Of a stretch of DNA of 39,655 nucleotides, positions 1-22,338 are shown piece by piece. A program made the translations under genes and the position numbers. A model generated the notes under the pieces. The model did no database searches and was not told the DNA's origin. It saw only the letters and a list, made by a program, of their open reading frames with translations. Position 1 is the stretch's first letter. The number at the start of each line of letters is the position of its first letter. This DNA is from an uncultured Flavobacteriaceae bacterium (lineage in GTDB: Bacteria; Bacteroidota; Bacteroidia; Flavobacteriales; Flavobacteriaceae): assembly GCA_947500385.1 (NCBI GenBank), contig CANMSA010000030.1, positions 1 to 39,655 on the forward strand, given 5' to 3'.

Positions 1-3000
1 CGAGCCACCAGCGGTCGGGGTTACGCTCCCAACGGATATCTGTCCCAGTTGCAGGCATGTATAGTCTTGTGTCTGTATCGCCTCGGCGATCAGTTGTGCG
101 GGCTGTGTGACATCGAAGGTCATTGTCTGCTCACAGTTGTTGGCATCCTGTACGCGAATGGAATAGGTCCCCGCGGCGAGGTTTACAAAGTTGTTGCTTA
201 CCTGATAGTTGGTGCCGTCGTCGATACTGTATTGGTACGGTGCGAAGCCGCCTGTTACGGCAAGGGATATGCCCCCGTTGCTCTCCCCGAAACAGACTAC
301 CGGTGTTTCGGTAGGCGTGATGGCTATCGGGGCGTCCTGTGTAATTGTAATTTCGGTAAAACCAGGACAAGTCGTTGACCCACCACGTGGACTGCGCATG
401 TATATATCATAATCACCTGCTACTGAAATTGTTCTAACGGTGGAGGCATTAAAGTCGGGATTTCCAGGTGTAACCCCATCGGGAACAACAGCGAATTGGT
501 AGGTGCCACTACCTCCTGAAGCAGATAAAGTTAAGGTCGTAGAAGTGGCGCAGGCGGCAATCGGGGGCGCGGTAGCTGTAATTGCAGTAGCAGGATCAAT
601 TGTAACAGACTGAGGAGTACCAGTACATCCCGCACCGTCAAGTACATTTACAGTATAAGTTCCGTTAGATAGGTTTTCAAATGTGTAGCTTATTGCTGTT
701 AAAGGGGTGGGGCTAATCCAAGGACCACCATTAATATTAAATGAGTAATCACCATTGCCGCTAGTTACATCGATTTGGATGGTTGCATCGTTGGTTCCTG
801 AGTAACATACAGTTGGATTTACATCGAACACTACAGGATCAGTCGGTGTAATGGTCAGTGCAGTATCAATGACATCTTCACAGCCATTCGCGTCCCGCAC
901 TCGAACAATGTAATCGCCTGCGGCAACTCCCGTAAAGACATTGTTATTGCCATTGGAGGCAAAATCGTATCCTGCAAGGGGTGTTCCTGCGGTACTTTCC
1001 AATTGATATAGATAAGTAGGGGTTCCTCCGTTCCCAGAAGCGGTGATGGTAGCGCCACCATTGGTACAGGAAAGCGCCGTGGTGATAGTGGCACTTGCAA
1101 CGATGGATGCGGGCTCTGTTATGGTTTGCGAAAGATTCAACGTGCAAGTAATGTCATCTGCCCTTCTAATCAATACGGTCTGGTTGCCAGCCCCAAAGAC
1201 TCCCGTGGTGGTTATTGGAGAGCTTGTGGAAGCGACGTATGTGGTCCCTCCATCAACTGAATATTCAAATCCGGCAGTGGCATCAAAGTTTTCTACTTCG
1301 AAAGTAATCGTCCCATCGGAAGCACCGTTACAACTTGCATTGGTGAAACTTGTAACATTTGCGGAGAATTGGTTTCCGGCCTCTATGCTCACGGGGGTAT
1401 CAACCGATAGTTCACATACTTCAGGTGTTTGAAATACCGTGATATCGTCTATGGCAACATCGTTTCCACTGATTTCACTTTCGTTGGTCAACACCACAAA
1501 ATCTAGTGTGGGAAAAGTACCTGGATTTAAGGAAAGTACGTATTCGTTCCAGATTTCATTTTCTGGTACGGCTCCTGTGGTTGAGGAAGCAATTACGGTA
1601 CCGGTTGCGGGATCTCTTAGTTCAATGGTAAGATCGGGAGCTACACGGTTTCTATTTTGTCTTATAAGGTTGGCCAACCAAAGCGAAACGGTAACCGGCT
1701 GGTTGGGAATCAAATCATTGATGGGTTTTTGATAAATGACCTGCCCTGGCGTGGGTGCGCCAATATTGATGACCAAGTAGCGGCCATCAGCGGCGCTGGG
1801 ATCCGTATGGTCAGTGGGGTTCCACCAAGCGCCAAAAGGGCTCACAATTGAACTTGTAACAGCATATTCATAGTCGTTGATGGCTCTTCCATTATCGATT
1901 GGGGCTCCGCTGGGAGTCACATCATTGGCCTGGTCTTCATAAAAGTAGCCGGTGGTGTTGGGGCTTGGTATGGTTGCTCCATTTCCAAAATCCTCGCTAA
2001 GCAACAAACTAGGGGTCGGAGGTGTCTGCGAAACATAATAGGCAGTTACCACATAGTTACCCAAAGGCAAGTCATTGAAAACATTGCTGGTAGGATCGGG
2101 GGAATTTAACACTCCATTTAAAGCATATCGGTAGTTGTACGTAGTGATGTCTGCGGTAACGGTTACATCACCTGTACCGGTACACGTGTATTCCACTGCG
2201 GGAGTTAAGGTTACAATTGGAGGGGGCGGCACATCGTCAACGGTGACCGTCATTGGAAAATCGCAAGATTGATCCCGTACGATGACCGTGTAGGTCCCTG
2301 CAGGTAAAATAGCAATCGTAGAAGTCCCAAAAGTACTTCCGCCGTCAAAGCTATAGGTATACGGTGCAGTTCCTCCGACCACATTCGTAATCCGTACCTC
2401 GGCTCCGTTAGGGTCACAGGTGGCATCACGGGAAACACCCACAGATGCGCTTAATGGAAATGGCTCCGTAAGATCATAGAACTGGGCGATATCACAACCA
2501 GAATTGTCCAATACACGAATGGGGTAATTGGCAGCGGTCAAGTTCACAAAATTCGGTGTGGATTGATAGGTGGCACCATTGTCAATACTATACTGATAAG
2601 GTGGAATACCTCCAGAAACGTTAATGGTCAATTGCCCGTCATTGTCGCCGCTACAAGAAGGTGAAGTGGCCGTGATAGAATCGATCACGGTATTTCCCAA
2701 ATCGGTAATCGTTGCTATATTGGAGTAGGCTACACAGTTATTGGCATCTACTACGATAAAAGTGTAGTCGCCATCATCTCCACTGCCAAAACTAAAGGTA
2801 TTCGATGTTTGATAATTTGCTGCGGGGATATTGGTGGGCGAAGCATACAGATCTGTGCCATCCTTACTCCAAATCGCGTAAAAGTATGGGCTTGGATTAC
2901 CTCCTGCCGCGGTTACTTGAATCGTACCATCGTCACAACCAATATTGGTAAGGGTCGTTGCCGTTAAGGTGGGGTCTGGAGTCCTGGTGACCGTTACGGG

Positions 3001-5973
3001 TTCAACTGCGATACAACCGTCATCTGTACGTACGACTACGAAATAGTTTCCTTCGTTTACATTAAACGTATGGGTATTGTCTGCCTGCGCTGTTTCGTCA
3101 TCTATAAAAGTACCTCCGGGATGTCCTGGGTACGGTGGGGATGCAGGAGGTGGAGTTCCGTCATCCCTACGCAGTTCATAGGAATAGTTTGGAAATACAT
3201 TTAAGGCATCTATTTGAATGCTGCCTTGTGTATTACAGTTGGCTTCCGTAGTGTCTATGTCTAGGGTTAGCATCCTGTTTAGGAACCCCTCATCGGGCGT
3301 GCTAAAAATACAAGCTCCAGGAATCGGGTTGCCCGTACCGTCTAACTGAACAACATCGATTCGGTAGATACCACTAGCCGTAATATCGAAGTCCGGACCA
3401 TTGTTGGCACTAAACGGAACCACGATATTCCCATTGGCAACATCAACCAATTGGTACCCATAGTTGGCACCAAGGTTGGTAATGGTAAACCGCCCATCGG
3501 TGGTACATACTATGTCTCGGGTGTTATAGAGTAAGTCTAAATTGTTTTGGTAGACATCGAAATGAAAACGACTGAAACAACCATTCAAGTAATTGACCAC
3601 CAACCGATATTTGCCAGCGGTATCGGCCAAGAAGTCCCCTCCGGTGGCTACTTGGTTCCAGGTACAGCCAACATCGGTATTGGCACAATTGGTAGGGGCG
3701 GCGGTACAACTTGTTTCGTCCAATCGCTCCCAAGAAAGACTTAGGGCATCTGCGATGCTAATTTGTATTAACTGGGAATCTGCCGCTCCGCACAAGAAAA
3801 GATTGGGCAACGTAGAACCATCAATGGCGCAAGTAACCAATTCTCCCTGCACATCATTGGTGGGATCCGCATCGCCATTACGGTCATTGTAAAAGTCGAT
3901 GATCGGGTTGTTTTGGGTAGTTCCAAAACGTTCCACTATAATGATTTCGTTAAAGTCTTTGCAAGGGTCTGGTACTTGCTTGTTTACCGTATAGGTGCCT
4001 ACTTCAGTTACTACCAAGGTGCTTGGGTCTCCGTCTGGATCTCCGTCATTCAATACAATACCGGCATCATTGGTCCAAACATAGGTATCAAAGCCGTCAC
4101 CGGCATCGAGAATTAGGTTGGCCCCACATAATTGTGCGGTTCTTGTAAAATTACAAGCGGTAAGGTCATCCAATAAGAAGTTTGTAGCACCCGGGGTCGG
4201 CAACCCACAGGCCGTAAGACTAGAGACACTGGGGTCGTCTGTAATGATTTGGGTATTCAAAGTACCTTGATAAGTAGAATAGGCTAGATTTTCGATCAAA
4301 TCGGTACAAGCATCTACAAAATCAAAGCAATTTTCAGCAACCCTAACACGCAGACGAATCCTGTAAGTTGGGTCGTTTATTTCTACGAGATTATCGGGAA
4401 CGGTAAAGACAACTTCTTTCGTAACAGGGTCAAAGGTGTATGTAACCCCGGGAGCATCGTCTAAATTTACCTCAATAAAGTCAGTGTTTTGAGGTAATAC
4501 GTCTCGAATGGTATAATTGTCGGCGTCATCGTTTCCCCTGTTTTGGAAAGACAGGATGTAATCCAATGTTTGCCCAAGGTTTACACCAAGCCCAGTAATA
4601 TCATTACCGGCGGCGTCGTTGACTCTTTTTTCAAGAACTATTTGTGGTTCTATAATGTCAACACTAATGGTGTTTAGGAAAAGATAAGTAATATCACCAC
4701 TACCATTTAACAAGAGTATGCGTATGGCGGCACCGGTTTCGTCATTTGGTAAGACACTGTTGAGCGGATTTTCGAGCTTATACATGTCGGTGTCCCAACC
4801 CAAGGTATTTTCACTGGCGGGATTTCTTGCCGCCACATGAAAAGCGGTTCCTGCCGCATCTACATCGGTAATGGTACTGTTGAAAAAATTGTCTACTGGA
4901 TTTAGGTTGTTGGTAAGCTTGGTAAAGCCATTATCCGGTGTGGCCGAGTTAGGGGTTAAATCGGCTTTGAACTGCAACTGCGGGCCTATAAAATTGAGAT
5001 CGCCCTCCATAGCCGAAACACCGATTTTTGCATTTACAGGAAGCGGTGAAGGAAGTGTTCTAAATCCATCGTAGTTAAAGGTGGCACTGTTTCCGTTGGA
5101 AATAGCGGCCATCCCGTCAAAGGTAGAAATGTATTTACTGGTTAGGTTCGGGTTTTCATAAATAACAACGATGGTCCAACCGGCCAAGTTTCCACCTTGT
5201 TTTCTTTCCAAAGTACCGACCACGTTTGCCACGGTATACTCGCCATTGGGAGCATCTCCCAAACTAGCGAACAAACTTGTTACGTTCGCATAGTTTAGAT
5301 AGGGGGAGTGTATGAGGTCTACATCAGCAAGAACACCGGGATCTCGTACGCCATCACCGTCCAAATCCCCATTTTTGTCATATATTTTTTCGTATTCGTA
5401 AATGGCGGGGCTCCCTGGACCTATGTCTACATAAGATCCTCCCGGAATCTTGAATTTAACAGATTCGTACGGTTGATCTCTTCCATAGTCGTTTGCCGCA
5501 GGGGTTTGAGTGGGTAGAATAGGGTCGCTACTTCGAGCATTGGCAGTGGAGTTTCCCTCGTTATAGGGATACGTTCCCCCCCAATAAAGTCCGGCATAGA
5601 CAACACGCGAACAGGGCGGTGCATTTAATGTGGCACTACTAGAGCTAAATGTGCTGTCGTCCCCGTCAATATCAATATACTGCATGGGCAAACTTTGGTT
5701 GTTTGCATTGGCATTGTTGTATGAAATGTTCGGATCCCACGGCGCATTGTTTGCATGAGCAGCATTGTTTCGTTGGTTGGGCCCTACGATACGCGTATTC
5801 AGTATATTGTTAGAAAGCAGCGTAATATCACCTTTAACCTTGATGTTATCTCCGGCCAAACGCGGCGTAAACGGAACCGCTACTTGTGCTTGTGCGGTGA
5901 ATACACACCCGATGGTAAAAAGAACAAGAAGTAGTAGTAATAGGGGTTTTTTGGTAGTTGGTTGGTGGTGCAT
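1..5973 (-). CDS. Giant SprB-like surface adhesin (T9SS cargo), C-terminus off the window
   Basis: Open reading frame of 1,991 codons running to base 1 without a stop, so the C-terminus is missing. It starts MHHQPTTKKPLLLLLLVLF and has an N-terminal signal peptide ending near AQA (about residue 30). Roughly in order it shows: a beta-rich head with an AGLYWGG motif (about 80-430); a DUF11-like domain (about 445-560); many Cys-containing Ig-like repeats; a jelly-roll-like segment (about 1320-1515, starting LLLSEDFGNGA and ending DVAIDDITVF); and SprB-type repeats with the pattern C-x-G-x-x-[DN]-G-x-I/L ... GG-x-x-PY-x-Y-S-[IF]-[DN]-[GD]-G (for example bases 2520-2700 and 110-310). Such repeats occur in SprB, the mobile gliding adhesin of Flavobacterium johnsoniae. 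The start codon overlaps the upstream PorP-like stop (TAATG), so translation is probably coupled. Expected location is the cell surface. The missing end should carry a T9SS sorting domain; that is inference. Adhesion or gliding role is inferred from the family. Confidence 0.85.
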   Translation of the reverse strand, partial: MHHQPTTKKPLLLLLLVLFTIGCVFTAQAQVAVPFTPRLAGDNIKVKGDITLLSNNILNTRIVGPNQRNNAAHANNAPWDPNISYNNANANNQSLPMQYIDIDGDDSTFSSSSATLNAPPCSRVVYAGLYWGGTYPYNEGNSTANARSSDPILPTQTPAANDYGRDQPYESVKFKIPGGSYVDIGPGSPAIYEYEKIYDKNGDLDGDGVRDPGVLADVDLIHSPYLNYANVTSLFASLGDAPNGEYTVANVVGTLERKQGGNLAGWTIVVIYENPNLTSKYISTFDGMAAISNGNSATFNYDGFRTLPSPLPVNAKIGVSAMEGDLNFIGPQLQFKADLTPNSATPDNGFTKLTNNLNPVDNFFNSTITDVDAAGTAFHVAARNPASENTLGWDTDMYKLENPLNSVLPNDETGAAIRILLLNGSGDITYLFLNTISVDIIEPQIVLEKRVNDAAGNDITGLGVNLGQTLDYILSFQNRGNDDADNYTIRDVLPQNTDFIEVNLDDAPGVTYTFDPVTKEVVFTVPDNLVEINDPTYRIRLRVRVAENCFDFVDACTDLIENLAYSTYQGTLNTQIITDDPSVSSLTACGLPTPGATNFLLDDLTACNFTRTAQLCGANLILDAGDGFDTYVWTNDAGIVLNDGDPDGDPSTLVVTEVGTYTVNKQVPDPCKDFNEIIIVERFGTTQNNPIIDFYNDRNGDADPTNDVQGELVTCAIDGSTLPNLFLCGAADSQLIQISIADALSLSWERLDETSCTAAPTNCANTDVGCTWNQVATGGDFLADTAGKYRLVVNYLNGCFSRFHFDVYQNNLDLLYNTRDIVCTTDGRFTITNLGANYGYQLVDVANGNIVVPFSANNGPDFDITASGIYRIDVVQLDGTGNPIPGACIFSTPDEGFLNRMLTLDIDTTEANCNTQGSIQIDALNVFPNYSYELRRDDGTPPPASPPYPGHPGGTFIDDETAQADNTHTFNVNEGNYFVVVRTDDGCIAVEPVTVTRTPDPTLTATTLTNIGCDDGTIQVTAAGGNPSPYFYAIWSKDGTDLYASPTNIPAANYQTSNTFSFGSGDDGDYTFIVVDANNCVAYSNIATITDLGNTVIDSITATSPSCSGDNDGQLTINVSGGIPPYQYSIDNGATYQSTPNFVNLTAANYPIRVLDNSGCDIAQFYDLTEPFPLSASVGVSRDATCDPNGAEVRITNVVGGTAPYTYSFDGGSTFGTSTIAILPAGTYTVIVRDQSCDFPMTVTVDDVPPPPIVTLTPAVEYTCTGTGDVTVTADITTYNYRYALNGVLNSPDPTSNVFNDLPLGNYVVTAYYVSQTPPTPSLLLSEDFGNGATIPSPNTTGYFYEDQANDVTPSGAPIDNGRAINDYEYAVTSSIVSPFGAWWNPTDHTDPSAADGRYLVINIGAPTPGQVIYQKPINDLIPNQPVTVSLWLANLIRQNRNRVAPDLTIELRDPATGTVIASSTTGAVPENEIWNEYVLSLNPGTFPTLDFVVLTNESEISGNDVAIDDITVFQTPEVCELSVDTPVSIEAGNQFSANVTSFTNASCNGASDGTITFEVENFDATAGFEYSVDGGTTYVASTSSPITTTGVFGAGNQTVLIRRADDITCTLNLSQTITEPASIVASATITTALSCTNGGATITASGNGGTPTYLYQLESTAGTPLAGYDFASNGNNNVFTGVAAGDYIVRVRDANGCEDVIDTALTITPTDPVVFDVNPTVCYSGTNDATIQIDVTSGNGDYSFNINGGPWISPTPLTAISYTFENLSNGTYTVNVLDGAGCTGTPQSVTIDPATAITATAPPIAACATSTTLTLSASGGSGTYQFAVVPDGVTPGNPDFNASTVRTISVAGDYDIYMRSPRGGSTTCPGFTEITITQDAPIAITPTETPVVCFGESNGGISLAVTGGFAPYQYSIDDGTNYQVSNNFVNLAAGTYSIRVQDANNCEQTMTFDVTQPAQLIAEAIQTQDYTCLQLGQISVGSVTPTAGGS

Positions 5974-8117
5974 TAGGTAAGCAGGTTTGGTTTCACACGC
6001 ATAATCCACATTTTATCATCGTATGCGTCGTTTAGTTTGGAGTAATAAGAAATCAAGGCGTTGTTCCAAGATTCATGTCGTTTTAAGTACACATATCTCC
6101 AGTTGTTTTCTGGGTTGATAAAATAGCTGGCACTTAAACCGTAGGAGTTCAAAAGCTTTACAAAGCGGTTGGCATTTTTTGGGTTTGCAAATACATTGGC
6201 AATGATATAGAAACCGGAGCCGACCCCTTCGAGAACGTAGTTTTTTGGAGTGGGGGCTACCGCCGCCATACCATCTTTCTCAACTTCATTATACTGAACG
6301 GTATTGGTTTCGTATTGCGAAGATTTCTCCTTCACTTTGTCTACATTAGTTGCGTACCTATCATTGGAGTAGCGATTGTCTACATTCATGATCCAGAGTG
6401 CACCGTCATAACTACCGCCCAAACCGCTTTGGTATGCCGCGGCGGCATCTTCCCAGCTATCATGACGTTCTAGGTACACGTATTTTAACCCATTGTTCGG
6501 GTTGTCTATATAATCGGTGACAAACCCCTTTTCATTTAGGTCGTTCATAAATTTATTCATGTACTGTCCCCCTTTGTACACATTGGCAACAACATAATAC
6601 CCATCTTCTACACCTTCTAAATCTTTGAACTTTCTACTTTTGATGGCAGTGCGTTCCGTGGGTCTTGCATAGTCGGTACTTTCGGTATTATCTCTTGCTG
6701 CTTCATTTCTTGAAGTATTGGTATTGGAGGCATAGGCGTTCTCTGCTATGGGATCTTTACCGGTGTCGTTGTATGTATTGGTCGTGGCAACAACATCTCT
6801 TGCCTGTTGTGCCCCGTTATTCGGACCGGATTTGGTGTCGTCGGTGTTTAGGGCTAAGGTGGCCTGTTGATTGTTTCCGGTGAGAAATAGGTCCTCTGCC
6901 CTTTTTTCAAGGTCTGGGCGCTCGCCATTGGTTTCGTTTCGAACCATTCGCATGACCATGCTAAATCGTCTTTCAAGATCTTTTTGACGATTGCTTTCCA
7001 ACGAATCCTGGCGGAACATCAGCTCTGCTATGATAGCGTCGTTTTCAGCTAGTTTTTTCTTTAGTTCTTCTATCTCATCGTTGCTTGCAAGGTCCTCATT
7101 TTCGGGCTCCACATTGTCCGCAAGATCATTGTCTTCCTCTAACATTACGCGATCCTCGGTAAGGTTTGGAGTAAAGGAGTATGCGAAAGATATTTCGTGG
7201 GTAACCCCGAGGTTGTCAAAATCGTTCACAAACCCTTTTTCCATGGTGTAACCAAGCGAGAGACGTTTGTTTAAGTTGAAGCCAACGCCTGCGGCGGCAC
7301 CATAGAAATTGTCATAGCCACCTTGTATCCATCCAAGTTTTGGAAGGTCTAAAATTAAACTACCGCCCAAGGTTAAATCGTCCCCTCCCGCATCGGCAAT
7401 CCGTTGCCCATTCATTCGTACACGGGCCAAAGGCATGAGGCGAGCGTTTTCCATAATACCAGAGCCGTTTTTAAAGGAATGGGTATACTGCAAATGTGCA
7501 GAGTAGGCCTTATCCCCAAATTCGGATAAGGACTTACTGGTTTTTAAGTTGTATTCAATCAAGTTTTCCGCATAGGCGCCGAAATCAAATTTTCCATAAG
7601 AGAGATTGAAACCGGGTTGAAAGGACAAGACATTGCTATCTTGAGTGCCAAAAAGACGATTGTCATTTGGATCCACGGTACTTACATCATTCAGATTCAA
7701 ACCACTACTATAATAGGCCAAGTTACCGCCAAAGGTAAAGTTGCTTTTATCACTCAGCTTAAGTCCGTAAGCGTAGTTGGCCAGTACCCCGATATTGGAA
7801 ATAGGACCGATTCTCTGGGTGTATAGGCTTAAACCTAATCCACTTCTATCCCCTATTCTACCGCTATAACTCAAGAAATAGGTTTGGTCGTTGTCTTGAA
7901 ATTGTACCGATTGGTTTCTGTGCAAAAGGTTAATATAGGACTTGTCTTCTTGTACCGTAGAAAAGGTAGGGTTGATCAAGAATCTATTAAACTTTAACAA
8001 GTTTTGAGGTGCCACTCGATAAGGCAAAATGGGATCGTCTTCCTGGCCATGTAAGGTTGTGGTAGACAAGGCCAGAAGGGCGATCAGCGATAAGGATAGG
8101 AGTCTGAAAAGTTTCAT
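5973..8117 (-). CDS. PorP/SprF-like outer-membrane protein fused to coiled coil and two SPOR-like repeats
   Basis: 714 residues, starting at MKLFRLLSLSLIALLAL. An upstream in-frame start at 8177 would put 20 residues before the signal peptide and overlap the preceding gene, so I reject it. Residues about 20-320 match the PorP/SprF family: QNLLKFNRFLINPTF near the N-terminus, then alternating beta-strands typical of an outer-membrane barrel. Residues about 342-395 are a charged coiled coil. After a Thr/Asn-rich linker come two about 85-residue repeats (about 493-580 and 624-709) sharing G-[YF]-Y-[VI]-[VI]-A-N-V-[YF] ... YVYL-x-RH-[DE]-SW ... WIM-x-V. These look SPOR-like. Plain PorP/SprF proteins are about 300 residues, so the protein is more than twice the usual size. 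PorP/SprF proteins act with T9SS and are needed for type B cargo; the gene lies between two such cargo genes, 13 bases after one stop and overlapping the next start by one base. Confidence 0.85.
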   Translation of the reverse strand: MKLFRLLSLSLIALLALSTTTLHGQEDDPILPYRVAPQNLLKFNRFLINPTFSTVQEDKSYINLLHRNQSVQFQDNDQTYFLSYSGRIGDRSGLGLSLYTQRIGPISNIGVLANYAYGLKLSDKSNFTFGGNLAYYSSGLNLNDVSTVDPNDNRLFGTQDSNVLSFQPGFNLSYGKFDFGAYAENLIEYNLKTSKSLSEFGDKAYSAHLQYTHSFKNGSGIMENARLMPLARVRMNGQRIADAGGDDLTLGGSLILDLPKLGWIQGGYDNFYGAAAGVGFNLNKRLSLGYTMEKGFVNDFDNLGVTHEISFAYSFTPNLTEDRVMLEEDNDLADNVEPENEDLASNDEIEELKKKLAENDAIIAELMFRQDSLESNRQKDLERRFSMVMRMVRNETNGERPDLEKRAEDLFLTGNNQQATLALNTDDTKSGPNNGAQQARDVVATTNTYNDTGKDPIAENAYASNTNTSRNEAARDNTESTDYARPTERTAIKSRKFKDLEGVEDGYYVVANVYKGGQYMNKFMNDLNEKGFVTDYIDNPNNGLKYVYLERHDSWEDAAAAYQSGLGGSYDGALWIMNVDNRYSNDRYATNVDKVKEKSSQYETNTVQYNEVEKDGMAAVAPTPKNYVLEGVGSGFYIIANVFANPKNANRFVKLLNSYGLSASYFINPENNWRYVYLKRHESWNNALISYYSKLNDAYDDKMWIMRVKPNLLT

Positions 8118-19400: not shown

Positions 19401-19972
19401 CTGGGAAGGATGGCAAAGGAAAAGGGGCTAGTAATGGGGAAGGCGAAGGCGAAGGGGAGAATGGAAAAGGTAAGGGAGCCGATGGGAATGGCGGAAATGA
19501 TGGCGAGGGGTCGAACGGCCAGGGCGGAAATGGTGTTGGCCAAGCCACCGAAGCGGAGTTGCAAGAGATATATGAGATATACAAACAACAACAACAATTA
19601 AGACAACAACTCGAACAGCAGTTGCAGGGTATGATTAACAATAGCGACCGTAAATTGTGGGAGAAATTGATAAGACAGATGGAGGACTTTGAGAATGATC
19701 TGTTGGAAAACGGTTTTACGCAACGCTCCATGGCGAAGGTGAACACCATCCAGTATGAGTTGTTGAAGTTGGAAAATGCGGCTATGAAGCAAGGAAAGAA
19801 ACCAGAAAGGGAGGGCAGTACGAACACAAAACGGTTCAGTAATCCCATAACTACGAAACCTGCGCTGCTAGAGAATTTTCGAAATGAGGTTGAAATATTA
19901 AATCGACAAGCCTTACCTTTGCGGCCCAATTTTAAGGAAAAGGTAAAAGACTATTTCAAAGGAAATGATTGA
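16457..19972 (+). CDS. DUF4175 family large membrane-anchored coiled-coil protein
   Basis: 1,171 residues. The start is a TTG: an in-frame TAG lies nine bases upstream, and the next ATG (16520) would remove the N-terminal helix preceding the first membrane segment. There are three hydrophobic segments (about 25-48, 58-82, 152-172), a beta-rich extracytoplasmic-looking region (about 190-490), and a very long Glu/Lys/Gln coiled coil (about 500-730). A Gly/Glu/Lys-rich low-complexity tract (about 935-1030) and a short helical C-terminus follow. This layout fits the DUF4175 family, common in Bacteroidota and of unknown biochemical function. The last eight bases overlap the ybeY start (ATGATTGA), indicating translational coupling. 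The low-complexity part has an extreme purine bias on the coding strand. Confidence 0.85.
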   Translation: MNSYHNILDKLKVFTQRYYTKMLIKGVLLFAVLGLLFFLGLMAVEYYLWLGSSGRLFLLLLFIGIELVLIYRYIAVPLFYLFRVRKGISNKQASLMIGKHFSEVDDKLYNLLDLAEDTSKSELLLASIEQRSERLDAIPFSQAVDYRDNVKYAKYLLVPIMLFGIIWITGELGSFFGSAGRVVNYDLAYEPPAPFRFELVNKQLKVLDAESYTIEVVTVGDIRPDAVFIGMEGKESLLQEDSGRYRYTFSPPLKEKLFYFRANGVQSREYRLEVLKTPSIQDFTVRLDFPKYTGRNFEILNGTGNATFPEGTKATWQIEGRDTETIHLRTKDTILTFGRERNAFRYSKRLYADFGYELVTSNANVEQYEKLAYTFKVVKDAFPKIRADQVLDSLNPNVAYFMGEASDDYKLSGIRLVCYPDNDEEEKQVLNLSQPNTNVDQFYYTFPSGLQLNPGTDYSFFFEAIDNDAIHGGKRSKTQVFSLALLNEDQLRNKELESQQSIIGNMDKSLEKFKEQKQTLQEINKEQKEKKQLNFNDQNEIKDFLKKQQQQESMMQKFSKQLKENLEKSEKDDELNKLLQERLERQEKEARKNEKLLEELNKIADKINKEELAKKLEELGKKQQNSQRSLEQLLELTKRYYVTEKAAQIAKDLEKLAERQEYLSEIKIGQDFSNREQEKLNEEFEEISGELKELEKDNQDLKKPLELSIDKNKEEGVKKDQQEALEQINKHEGQESSSMEEREKTAKTASQKQKSAANKMKELSQGLQQASSGGASGSSVSEDAEMLRQILDNLVTFSFKQEKLFENLEDAGPDMPQFSGVVKRQQELKGLFEHVDDSLFALSLRQAELSEFVNEQITEVYYNIDKSLESLAESQVYQGVSYQKYVLSASNSLADFLAKLLDNMNQSMQMGQGSGESQEGFQLPDIIQQQQGLKDKMEGMGQSGKGKPQQGEGEGKGKQGAGENEGGEGKSGQEGNTGEGKAGKDGKGKGASNGEGEGEGENGKGKGADGNGGNDGEGSNGQGGNGVGQATEAELQEIYEIYKQQQQLRQQLEQQLQGMINNSDRKLWEKLIRQMEDFENDLLENGFTQRSMAKVNTIQYELLKLENAAMKQGKKPEREGSTNTKRFSNPITTKPALLENFRNEVEILNRQALPLRPNFKEKVKDYFKGND

Positions 19973-20384
19973 TTTTCATTACGAGCTAGATTTCAAACTT
20001 GATAATGCAACCAAGTATTCCGATTGGATTACTAGGATTATTAAGATGGAGAAAAGCAGTATTGGTCAGTTGGATTATGTATTCTGTAATGACAGTTATT
20101 TGTTGAATATAAATCAGCAGTATTTGAAGCACGATACTTTTACTGATATCATCACTTTTGATTACAGTCAAGGGAGACAGGTTGCCGGGGATATTTTTAT
20201 CTCTATTGATAGGGTACGAGAGAATGCTAAAGAATTTGTAGTGGATTTCAATGAGGAGCTAAGACGGGTGATGGCACATGGAATCCTGCACTTATTAGGT
20301 TATAAGGATAAGAGTGTAAGTGAAAGCATTGAAATGAGGGAAAGGGAAAATGAAGCGATGCGATTGTTCCACGTGGAACAATAG
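19965..20384 (+). CDS. ybeY: YbeY endoribonuclease (16S rRNA 3' maturation / ribosome quality control)
   Basis: 139 residues, typical length for YbeY, a zinc-dependent single-strand endoribonuclease acting in rRNA processing. The signature HGILHLLGY is present (His105 and His109). The third ligand, His in E. coli (HGxLHLxGYDH), is Asp115 here in GYKDKS; from memory this GYKDK form is common in Bacteroidota, and Asp can also bind zinc. Other family landmarks are YLKHDTFTDIITFDY and AGDIFISIDRV. It starts inside the end of the DUF4175 gene. Its last codons (LFHVEQ and stop) are formed by a parS-type palindrome, so the protein's C-terminal tail is dictated by a DNA site. Confidence 0.93.
   Translation: MIDFHYELDFKLDNATKYSDWITRIIKMEKSSIGQLDYVFCNDSYLLNINQQYLKHDTFTDIITFDYSQGRQVAGDIFISIDRVRENAKEFVVDFNEELRRVMAHGILHLLGYKDKSVSESIEMRERENEAMRLFHVEQ
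20363..20382. other. parS: parS-type centromere site 1 (ParB/Spo0J binding), overlapping the ybeY 3' end
   Basis: Perfect 20-base palindrome ATTGTTCCACGTGGAACAAT whose inner 16 bases, TGTTCCACGTGGAACA (20365-20380), fit the chromosomal parS consensus TGTTnCACGTGnAACA. It covers the last six ybeY codons and part of the stop. A second exact 16-base copy lies at 22323-22338, on the other side of mnmG. ParB is not encoded in the window, so binding is inferred from the match alone. Confidence 0.85.
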
Positions 20385-20445
20385 TTGGATATATTGATTA
20401 GTGTGCGGTGTTCAGTCGCGCAGAAAGCAGGTTTAAACCAAGGGA

Positions 20446-22314
20446 ATGTTTGGAGAGCAATACGATGTTATAGTAGTGGGTGGCGGACACGCGGGGGCCG
20501 AAGCGGCCGCGGCCGCGGCGAACATGGGCTCCAAAACATTATTGGTCACGATGAACTTGCAGACGATAGGACAAATGTCGTGCAATCCTGCCATGGGAGG
20601 AATCGCCAAGGGTCAGATTGTTCGGGAGATCGACGCCTTGGGAGGCTATAGTGGGGTCATTACCGACAAGTCCGCGATTCAGTTTAAGATGCTAAACAAG
20701 TCCAAGGGTCCGGCTATGTGGAGTCCGAGGGCTCAAAACGATCGGATGCGTTTTGCAGAGGAATGGCGTATGGCCTTGGAGAATACTCCCAATTGCGACT
20801 TCTATCAGGAGATGGTAAATGGCTTATTGACCGAAGGTGGAAAGGTAACCGGGGTACGCACCTCTTTGGGACTCGAGATCAAAGGTAAATCTGTGGTTCT
20901 TACCAATGGAACCTTTTTGAATGGTTTGATTCATATCGGGGAAAAACAGTTGGGCGGAGGCCGCGCTGGTGAGAAGGCATCCACAGGAATCACTGAACAG
21001 CTGGTTGATTTTGGTTTTCAGAGTGGACGCATGAAAACGGGAACACCCCCTCGTGTGGACGGCCGCTCCCTGAATTATGCGGCAATGATTCCGCAACCGG
21101 GCGATGCAATTCCTGAAAAATTTTCCTATTTGAATACAAGACCGCTCGATACGCAGCGAGATTGCCATATGACACATACGAGTACATTGGTGCATGATTT
21201 GCTAAGAGAAGGTTTTGATCGTTCTCCAATGTTCAATGGCAGAATCAAAAGTCTGGGTCCAAGATATTGCCCATCTATAGAGGACAAAATAAACCGTTTT
21301 GCAGATAAGGACAGCCATCAACTGTTCGTAGAGCCGGAAGGTTGGAATACAGTTGAGGTATACGTAAATGGTTTTTCAACTTCCTTGCCGGAGGATGTGC
21401 AATATAAAGCGCTGCGATCTGTAAAGGGGTTCGAAAACGTGAAGTTTTTCAGGCCGGGTTATGCAATAGAGTACGACTATTTTCCACCCACGCAACTAAA
21501 GCATACGTTGGAAACCAAGTTGGTTGAAAACCTTTATTTTGCCGGGCAGATCAATGGTACTACCGGGTATGAGGAAGCCGCTTCCCAAGGGCTGATGGCC
21601 GGTATCAATGCGCATCGTAAACTAAACGAAGAAGAATCCTTTATATTAAAAAGAGATGAGGCATATATTGGGGTGTTGATTGATGATTTGATTACGAAGG
21701 GTACAGAAGAACCCTATAGGATGTTTACTTCCAGGGCAGAATATCGTACACTCTTACGACAAGATAATGCGGATTTGAGGCTGACCCCTAAAGGACATGC
21801 GATTGGTTTGGCCAAAGAAGAGCGGTTGGTTCGGATGGAACAAAAGGAAAGGAAGGCAAAGGACTTCGTTGATTTTTTCCGTAAAACAAGTGTCCTGCCA
21901 GCCGAAATTAATCCGATTCTGGAAAGCGTAAGGTCAGCTACGGTAAAGCAATCCGATAAGATGTTCAAGGTATTTTCGAGGCCAAAAGTGACTATGGGAC
22001 ATATGATGCAGTTGAGTTCTGTGGCCAAGTACGTGGAAGAGCATGAGCTTGACAGAGAGGAAATGGAGCAGACCGAAATACAGGTGAAGTATGCCGGTTA
22101 TATCGAAAAAGAAAAGAACAATGCCGATAAGTTACATCGGTTGGAGAACGTTAAGATTCCACCTAATTTTGATTATACCCAGTTGAAGTCTTTGTCTTAT
22201 GAGGCAAGGGAAAAGTTGAGTGCTGTACGGCCCGTAACTATAGCGCAGGCGGCACGGGTAAGTGGAGTGAATCCGTCAGATATCAGTGTTCTTCTGGTAT
22301 TTTTAGGGCGGTAA
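20446..22314 (+). CDS. mnmG: tRNA uridine-5-carboxymethylaminomethyl modification enzyme MnmG (GidA)
   Basis: 622 residues, full length. With MnmE, MnmG installs the carboxymethylaminomethyl group on wobble U34 of certain tRNAs, using FAD and methylene-tetrahydrofolate. The FAD-binding motif GGGHAG is at residues 12-17 (YDVIVVGGGHAGAEAA). GidA signatures CNPAMGGIAKG, LTNGTFLNGLIHIG and GTPPRVDGRS follow, then INGTTGYEEAASQGL and TSRAEYRTLLRQDNADLRLT. The C-terminal helical domain that contacts MnmE and tRNA is complete (LSYEAREKLSAVRP... ending LVFLGR). It lies 61 bases after ybeY on the same strand and is flanked on both sides by parS-type palindromes. gidA lies next to the replication origin in many bacteria. 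Confidence 0.97.
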   Translation: MFGEQYDVIVVGGGHAGAEAAAAAANMGSKTLLVTMNLQTIGQMSCNPAMGGIAKGQIVREIDALGGYSGVITDKSAIQFKMLNKSKGPAMWSPRAQNDRMRFAEEWRMALENTPNCDFYQEMVNGLLTEGGKVTGVRTSLGLEIKGKSVVLTNGTFLNGLIHIGEKQLGGGRAGEKASTGITEQLVDFGFQSGRMKTGTPPRVDGRSLNYAAMIPQPGDAIPEKFSYLNTRPLDTQRDCHMTHTSTLVHDLLREGFDRSPMFNGRIKSLGPRYCPSIEDKINRFADKDSHQLFVEPEGWNTVEVYVNGFSTSLPEDVQYKALRSVKGFENVKFFRPGYAIEYDYFPPTQLKHTLETKLVENLYFAGQINGTTGYEEAASQGLMAGINAHRKLNEEESFILKRDEAYIGVLIDDLITKGTEEPYRMFTSRAEYRTLLRQDNADLRLTPKGHAIGLAKEERLVRMEQKERKAKDFVDFFRKTSVLPAEINPILESVRSATVKQSDKMFKVFSRPKVTMGHMMQLSSVAKYVEEHELDREEMEQTEIQVKYAGYIEKEKNNADKLHRLENVKIPPNFDYTQLKSLSYEAREKLSAVRPVTIAQAARVSGVNPSDISVLLVFLGR

Positions 22315-22322
22315 CACTTGTT

Positions 22323-22338
22323 TGTTCCACGTGGAACA
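22323..22338. other. parS: parS-type centromere site 2, just downstream of mnmG
   Basis: Exact 16-base palindrome TGTTCCACGTGGAACA, identical to the core of the site at 20365-20380 and centred 1,958 bases from it. It begins nine bases after the mnmG stop, in the 142-base gap before the next gene. The remainder of that gap shows no recognisable promoter. Confidence 0.85.

Follow-up and report, generated by a model that had tools for sequence, protein, structure and literature searches.

The two perfect 16-bp palindromes that bracket mnmG in the DNA described here are very probably the parS centromere of this chromosome, the sites that its ParB and ParA would use. This prediction draws on the sequence of the palindromes, their uniqueness in the genome, their conservation at mnmG, selection on the DNA itself, the residues of ParB, and the position of the skew-inferred origin in relatives. 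So read, the parS would work in the ordinary way, with mnmG as its anchor, dnaA and parAB at a distance, and one copy overprinted on ybeY.

The window (i.e., the whole stretch of 39,655 nucleotides that was analysed) is contig C30 of a 6.03 Mb draft genome. A search of the window recovered TGTTCCACGTGGAACA, a perfect 16-bp palindrome, at 20365–20380 and 22323–22338, the two sites being 1,958 bp apart; both copies fit TGTTNCACGTGNAACA and bracket mnmG, exactly as originally noted, and no further TGTTCCACGTGGAACA-like place was found in the window at up to three mismatches. The first predicted parS site lies inside the 3′ end of ybeY (endoribonuclease YbeY; 19965–20384, plus strand; PF02130, E = 7.2e-28), where it reads TG-TTC-CAC-GTG-GAA-CA and covers the final codons of the gene (TTG TTC CAC GTG GAA CAA TAG), giving the protein an LFHVEQ end; the same placement recurs in relatives. 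The second starts 8 bp past the stop codon of mnmG (gidA; 20446–22314, plus strand; PF01134 (GIDA), E = 2.5e-161). The surrounding genes are ordinary: among them are pgk, type IX secretion genes, and genes for a DNA polymerase III delta-prime-like protein, two tRNA synthetases (Glu/Gln class), and a methyltransferase. A minus-strand frame (1–6009), no shorter than 2003 codons, adjoins the type IX secretion genes and runs off the left contig end. A scan of the window against Rfam gave no match at gathering scores.

Had the palindromes been scattered, the centromere proposal would have suffered; instead, across the draft genome (6,028,828 bases in 123 contigs), TGTTNCACGTGNAACA was matched only twice, both times around mnmG and 1,958 bp apart, with no match for a reversed control. 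By chance, 14 fixed bases would match approximately 0.02 times in a genome of 6.03 Mb if even base composition is assumed. When up to three mismatches were allowed, 14 places were found genome-wide vs. 28 for the reversed control, indicating that the weaker matches are background and giving no indication of a hidden family of weak sites.

The perfect site was found in 264 of 299 Flavobacteriaceae genomes, a set drawn from a larger group, at one to three copies each, and the reversed pattern in 2 of the 299. Among the 35 genomes that lack a perfect site, 30 carry a copy with one change, often at the outermost base, although a few of these may be chance, since the control matched in 4 of the 35; two such one-change sites lie 1.89–2.04 kb apart in 14 of those 30 genomes. 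Only five of the 299 (G004, G014, G107, G200, and G273) have no site even with one mismatch, and ParB is present in these. In a phylum-wide set that overlaps the family set, perfect sites occur in 296 of 392 genomes, representing 124 of 179 genera, with the control non-zero in six rows.

In the loci sampled, the sites keep company with mnmG. An mnmG match was present in all 30 palindrome-fetched loci (L042–L071; one locus per genome, from 30 of the 264 perfect-site genomes), and ybeY in 24 of them. In a collection of 94 loci (these 30, plus 34 and 30 fetched by ybeY), and with loci lacking an mnmG match excluded from the count, 90 of 91 distinct perfect sites are no more than 400 bp from one end of an mnmG match: 77 upstream and 13 downstream, with one elsewhere (L022). 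The downstream side is under-sampled, as 60 of the 94 loci span just 3 kb or so. In Pedobacter and other Sphingobacteriales (L023, L025–L027, L029, and L030), ybeY lies away from mnmG and the sites are still found at mnmG, which argues that mnmG, not ybeY, is the anchor. On these sequence comparisons, the layout of sites around mnmG is old. A one-letter variant, TGTTCCTCGTGGAACA, was also seen near the mnmG locus in G292 (C1:715601, 716045, and 716484) and in L015 (4681 and 5134), at a spacing of about 440–450 bp, and as a single copy in L014 (131).

The overlap with ybeY allows one stretch of DNA to be read in two ways. An FHV[EK] motif lies within the last nine residues of 28 of 83 distinct YbeY ends, and in these tails His is encoded by CAC and Val by GTG without exception (28/28 each), against backgrounds of 28% and 20%, respectively, among the YbeY and MnmG matches at these loci; TTC encodes Phe in 25 of the 28, compared with a background of 21%. 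Six of the tails come from palindrome-fetched loci and are therefore biased by construction. The other 22, one of which is the window itself, were found by YbeY similarity, independently of the palindrome, and all 22 have both CAC and GTG; 30 of the ybeY-fetched loci are the best 30 of 59 genomes with a match, which favours closeness to the query. The loci are related by descent, so that a naive codon probability would not be a real one, but the direction is clear: the fixation of CAC and GTG in independently found tails points to selection acting at the DNA level on the coding copy in ybeY. The dual coding proposed for the ybeY end is real. Across the YbeY C-termini compared, palindrome-type His and Val codons are found wherever FHV[EK] occurs, but the overlap itself is not the rule (28/83). 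The remaining 55 ends have no such tail, and many have the palindrome just past the stop codon; outside the overlap cases, the site commonly lies in the ybeY–mnmG spacer.

Several individual loci extend this picture. The palindrome at 6354–6369 of L031 is translated in another frame, as VSRET, and a one-change copy at 6298–6313 of L041 lies across the ybeY stop codon; at these loci the DNA is constant while the peptide varies, and such overprinting seems to have evolved on more than one occasion. The YbeY tail of G053 (L235) reads LFHMEQ and so falls outside the FHV[EK] count, and its site and the second site in that genome both carry TGTTCCACATGGAACA. In G238, which belongs to the same genus, this central-change variant TGTTCCACATGGAACA likewise occupies both sites, and nothing unusual was found in the helix-turn-helix of its ParB; a shared change of this kind is what one would see were the sites to drift in concert as a single DNA signal, and hints that they do. 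A search of the 299 genomes for an FHVEQ-stop pattern gave 95 matches in 84 genomes, 91 of them with TTYCACGTGGAACA, a result not used as evidence of codon choice, since the pattern is matched by any parS that RTRR follows. Four matches depart from TTYCACGTGGAACA: that in G045 is on a different contig from its ybeY, that in G230 is 779 kb from the parS-type match of the genome, and those in G203 and G072 may be genuine tails that do not match the palindrome.

A parB homologue, without which the original prediction would fail, was found in the genome beside a ParA-like reading frame. The single ParB match of the genome (G000:C12; E = 2.3e-51; 299 aa) lies on a different contig from the window, and the adjoining ORF (L003:2148–2921) reads KGGVGKTT and is ParA-like by eye. 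All 62 family genomes that were searched for ParB have it, among them the 35 that lack a perfect site, and 53 of the 62 give a single match. Thirty-one ParBs (this genome's own and those of 30 loci fetched from the 62 genomes) were aligned; with residue numbering transferred via the GKxR and GHxR motifs rather than by alignment with Caulobacter ParB, R173, N178, G201, and R204 are present in all 31, and Q162 and G170 in 30. All 31 also have a GERR motif, which belongs to the CTP-binding site of ParB. Residue 172 is mostly K, as in this genome's own ParB, compared with S in PMC7383237. According to the same source, R173 and G201 of ParB contact parS, and Q and R take these positions in Noc (PMC7383237).

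With the window's genome in draft form (123 contigs), the case for the origin depends on closed relatives. In eight of these (G052, G124, G131, G284, G218, G283, G259, and G256), parS is 0.30–0.47 of the chromosome away from dnaA, and dnaA therefore proved to be the wrong landmark. An oriC far from dnaA has been published for Bacteroidetes (PMC4755523). The distance from parS to parB is 0.14–0.36 of the chromosome (0.32–0.34 in five of the eight), so that none of these relatives has parB close to parS, in contrast to the usual rule that the par operon lies within the origin domain (PMC7022226). GC skew was sampled in five closed relatives, from 20 stretches of 20 kb per genome at 5% spacing, and a two-state fit was scored against 60 shuffles. 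The GC3-skew fit beat all 60 shuffles in all five genomes and placed the origin at 0.018 (G052), 0.061 (G124), 0.125 (G256), 0.056 (G131), and 0.099 (G218) of the genome from parS, each value being uncertain by about one sampling step (0.05) because, where positions tie, the fit returns the first; the distance from this origin to dnaA is 0.22–0.41. In all five relatives sampled, the skew-inferred origin is nearer to parS than to dnaA. Raw GC skew beat all 60 shuffles in only two of the five (G124 and G131), and its best fit in G218 lies 0.20 of the genome from parS. In G052, 400 contiguous kb centred on parS were scanned, a span limited to minima within 200 kb of the site, and the lowest point of cumulative GC skew there falls 44 kb from parS. 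A cluster of four DnaA boxes within 600 bp was not found in these 400 kb, and the window has two TTWTNCACA boxes, which are unclustered.

ParB is known to load SMC at parS in other systems. TIGR02168 was run on 11 genomes, this one and ten relatives in single contigs, and none gave a canonical SMC over the cut-off (best score, 29.8 bits), while 10 of 14 controls exceeded it. It follows that the SMC-loading role of ParB and parS is probably absent here or taken by another complex.

Other explanations of the palindromes can be weighed against these results. The palindrome might act as an RNA element (a hairpin, attenuator, or terminator) in the ybeY–mnmG transcript, and a hairpin can indeed fold at each site (−10.6 and −7.7 kcal/mol). 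These energies are unremarkable (z = −1.74 and −0.98), however, a terminator is called at neither site, and, with the sites oriented by mnmG, a stem-breaking C–A at the fifth pair (12 of 91 sites) is about as common as a stem-keeping T–G (10 of 91); on these grounds the hairpin or terminator reading, which we judge very improbable, was rejected. Equally little credence is given to binding by a Noc-like protein or another regulator of mnmG or ybeY in place of ParB. The location of the sites at gene ends would suit such a regulator, as would residue 184, which is K or R in 30 of the 31 ParBs and is described as permissive on the path to Noc (PMC7383237). Yet the R/G pair at positions 173 and 201 is kept in 31 of 31 ParBs, where Noc has Q/R, and a Noc-type site was rejected for this reason; moreover, with a single ParB match in 53 of 62 genomes, a second family member is not needed, and the genome-wide uniqueness and skew position of the sites fit a centromere.

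Of still slighter probability is the proposal that FHVEQ is kept for the function of the YbeY protein, with the palindrome as its by-product. That the tail recurs in many genera speaks for a protein role, but such a role sits poorly with the invariant CAC and GTG codons, against backgrounds of 28% and 20%, and with the 55 of 83 ends that do without the tail, many of them with the palindrome just past the stop. The VSRET reading in L031, the stop-overlapping copy in L041, and the FHMEQ tail of G053, whose change is repeated at the second site in that genome, all weigh in the same direction.

Under the preferred reading as a ParABS centromere, ParB, encoded on another contig, would nucleate on each of the two sites, close into a CTP clamp, and slide along ybeY–mnmG and beyond, and ParA would move the ParB-coated, origin-proximal region. 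Each of these processes (i.e., ParB loading, CTP-clamp spreading, and ParA-driven movement) is established for ParABS in other systems (PMC7333895). The simplest reason for the bracketing of mnmG would be redundancy of loading. More tentatively, and with somewhat less than even confidence, the anchoring of the centromere to mnmG in Flavobacteriaceae, and perhaps in Bacteroidota, may be a relic of an ancestral origin cluster of mnmG, parAB, and dnaA, from which dnaA and parAB moved off and canonical SMC was lost, leaving parS alone to mark the origin; the mnmG region would then serve as a fixed ParB platform, hence the flanking sites, and the C-terminus of YbeY would have been reshaped more than once by the centromere.

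An mnmG-anchored parS would provide a simple, sequence-only marker of the origin in a large group in which dnaA misleads, as well as a compact centromere open to experiment in cells with no known SMC, so that ParABS segregation without canonical SMC becomes directly testable in a laboratory Flavobacterium. The ybeY end, in turn, offers a clean natural case of DNA selected as a centromere while coding for protein. Origins marked by parS, and an oriC far from dnaA, are already published for Bacteroidetes (PMC10197239, PMC4755523). For the mnmG bracket and the ybeY overlap, no description was found among titles and the openings of abstracts in the parS literature on Bacteroidota or Flavobacterium, mnmG/gidA, and YbeY, a body of work whose subscription journals fall mostly outside this coverage, and both features may already be in print.

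The closest published parallel is a study of twelve gut bacteria, including Bacteroides caecimuris and Muribaculum intestinale, in which a parS cluster and GC skew, backed by read coverage, mark the origin, and in which dnaA is not systematically found at the origin (PMC10197239). No known condensin was found in the two Bacteroidetes of that study, and the present system is alike in that parS lies near the skew-inferred origin in closed relatives, dnaA lies farther from it, and no canonical SMC was detected in the 11 genomes searched; it differs in the mnmG bracket and ybeY overlap, which the available text does not describe (PMC10197239). Noc and its NBS sites resemble the present system in the related protein family and the similar 16-bp site (PMC7383237, PMC8429893), but ParB residues 173 and 201 here are R/G in place of the Q/R of Noc. 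With the chromosomal parS of ParABS (TGTTNCACGTGNAACA), the sites share the consensus, their small number, a ParB with parS-type residues and GERR, and a position near the skew-inferred origin, as seen here in relatives. Unlike that familiar arrangement, they are associated with mnmG instead of parAB, lie far from dnaA and parB in the eight closed relatives, occur with no canonical SMC detected in the 11 genomes searched, and include one copy overprinted on ybeY.
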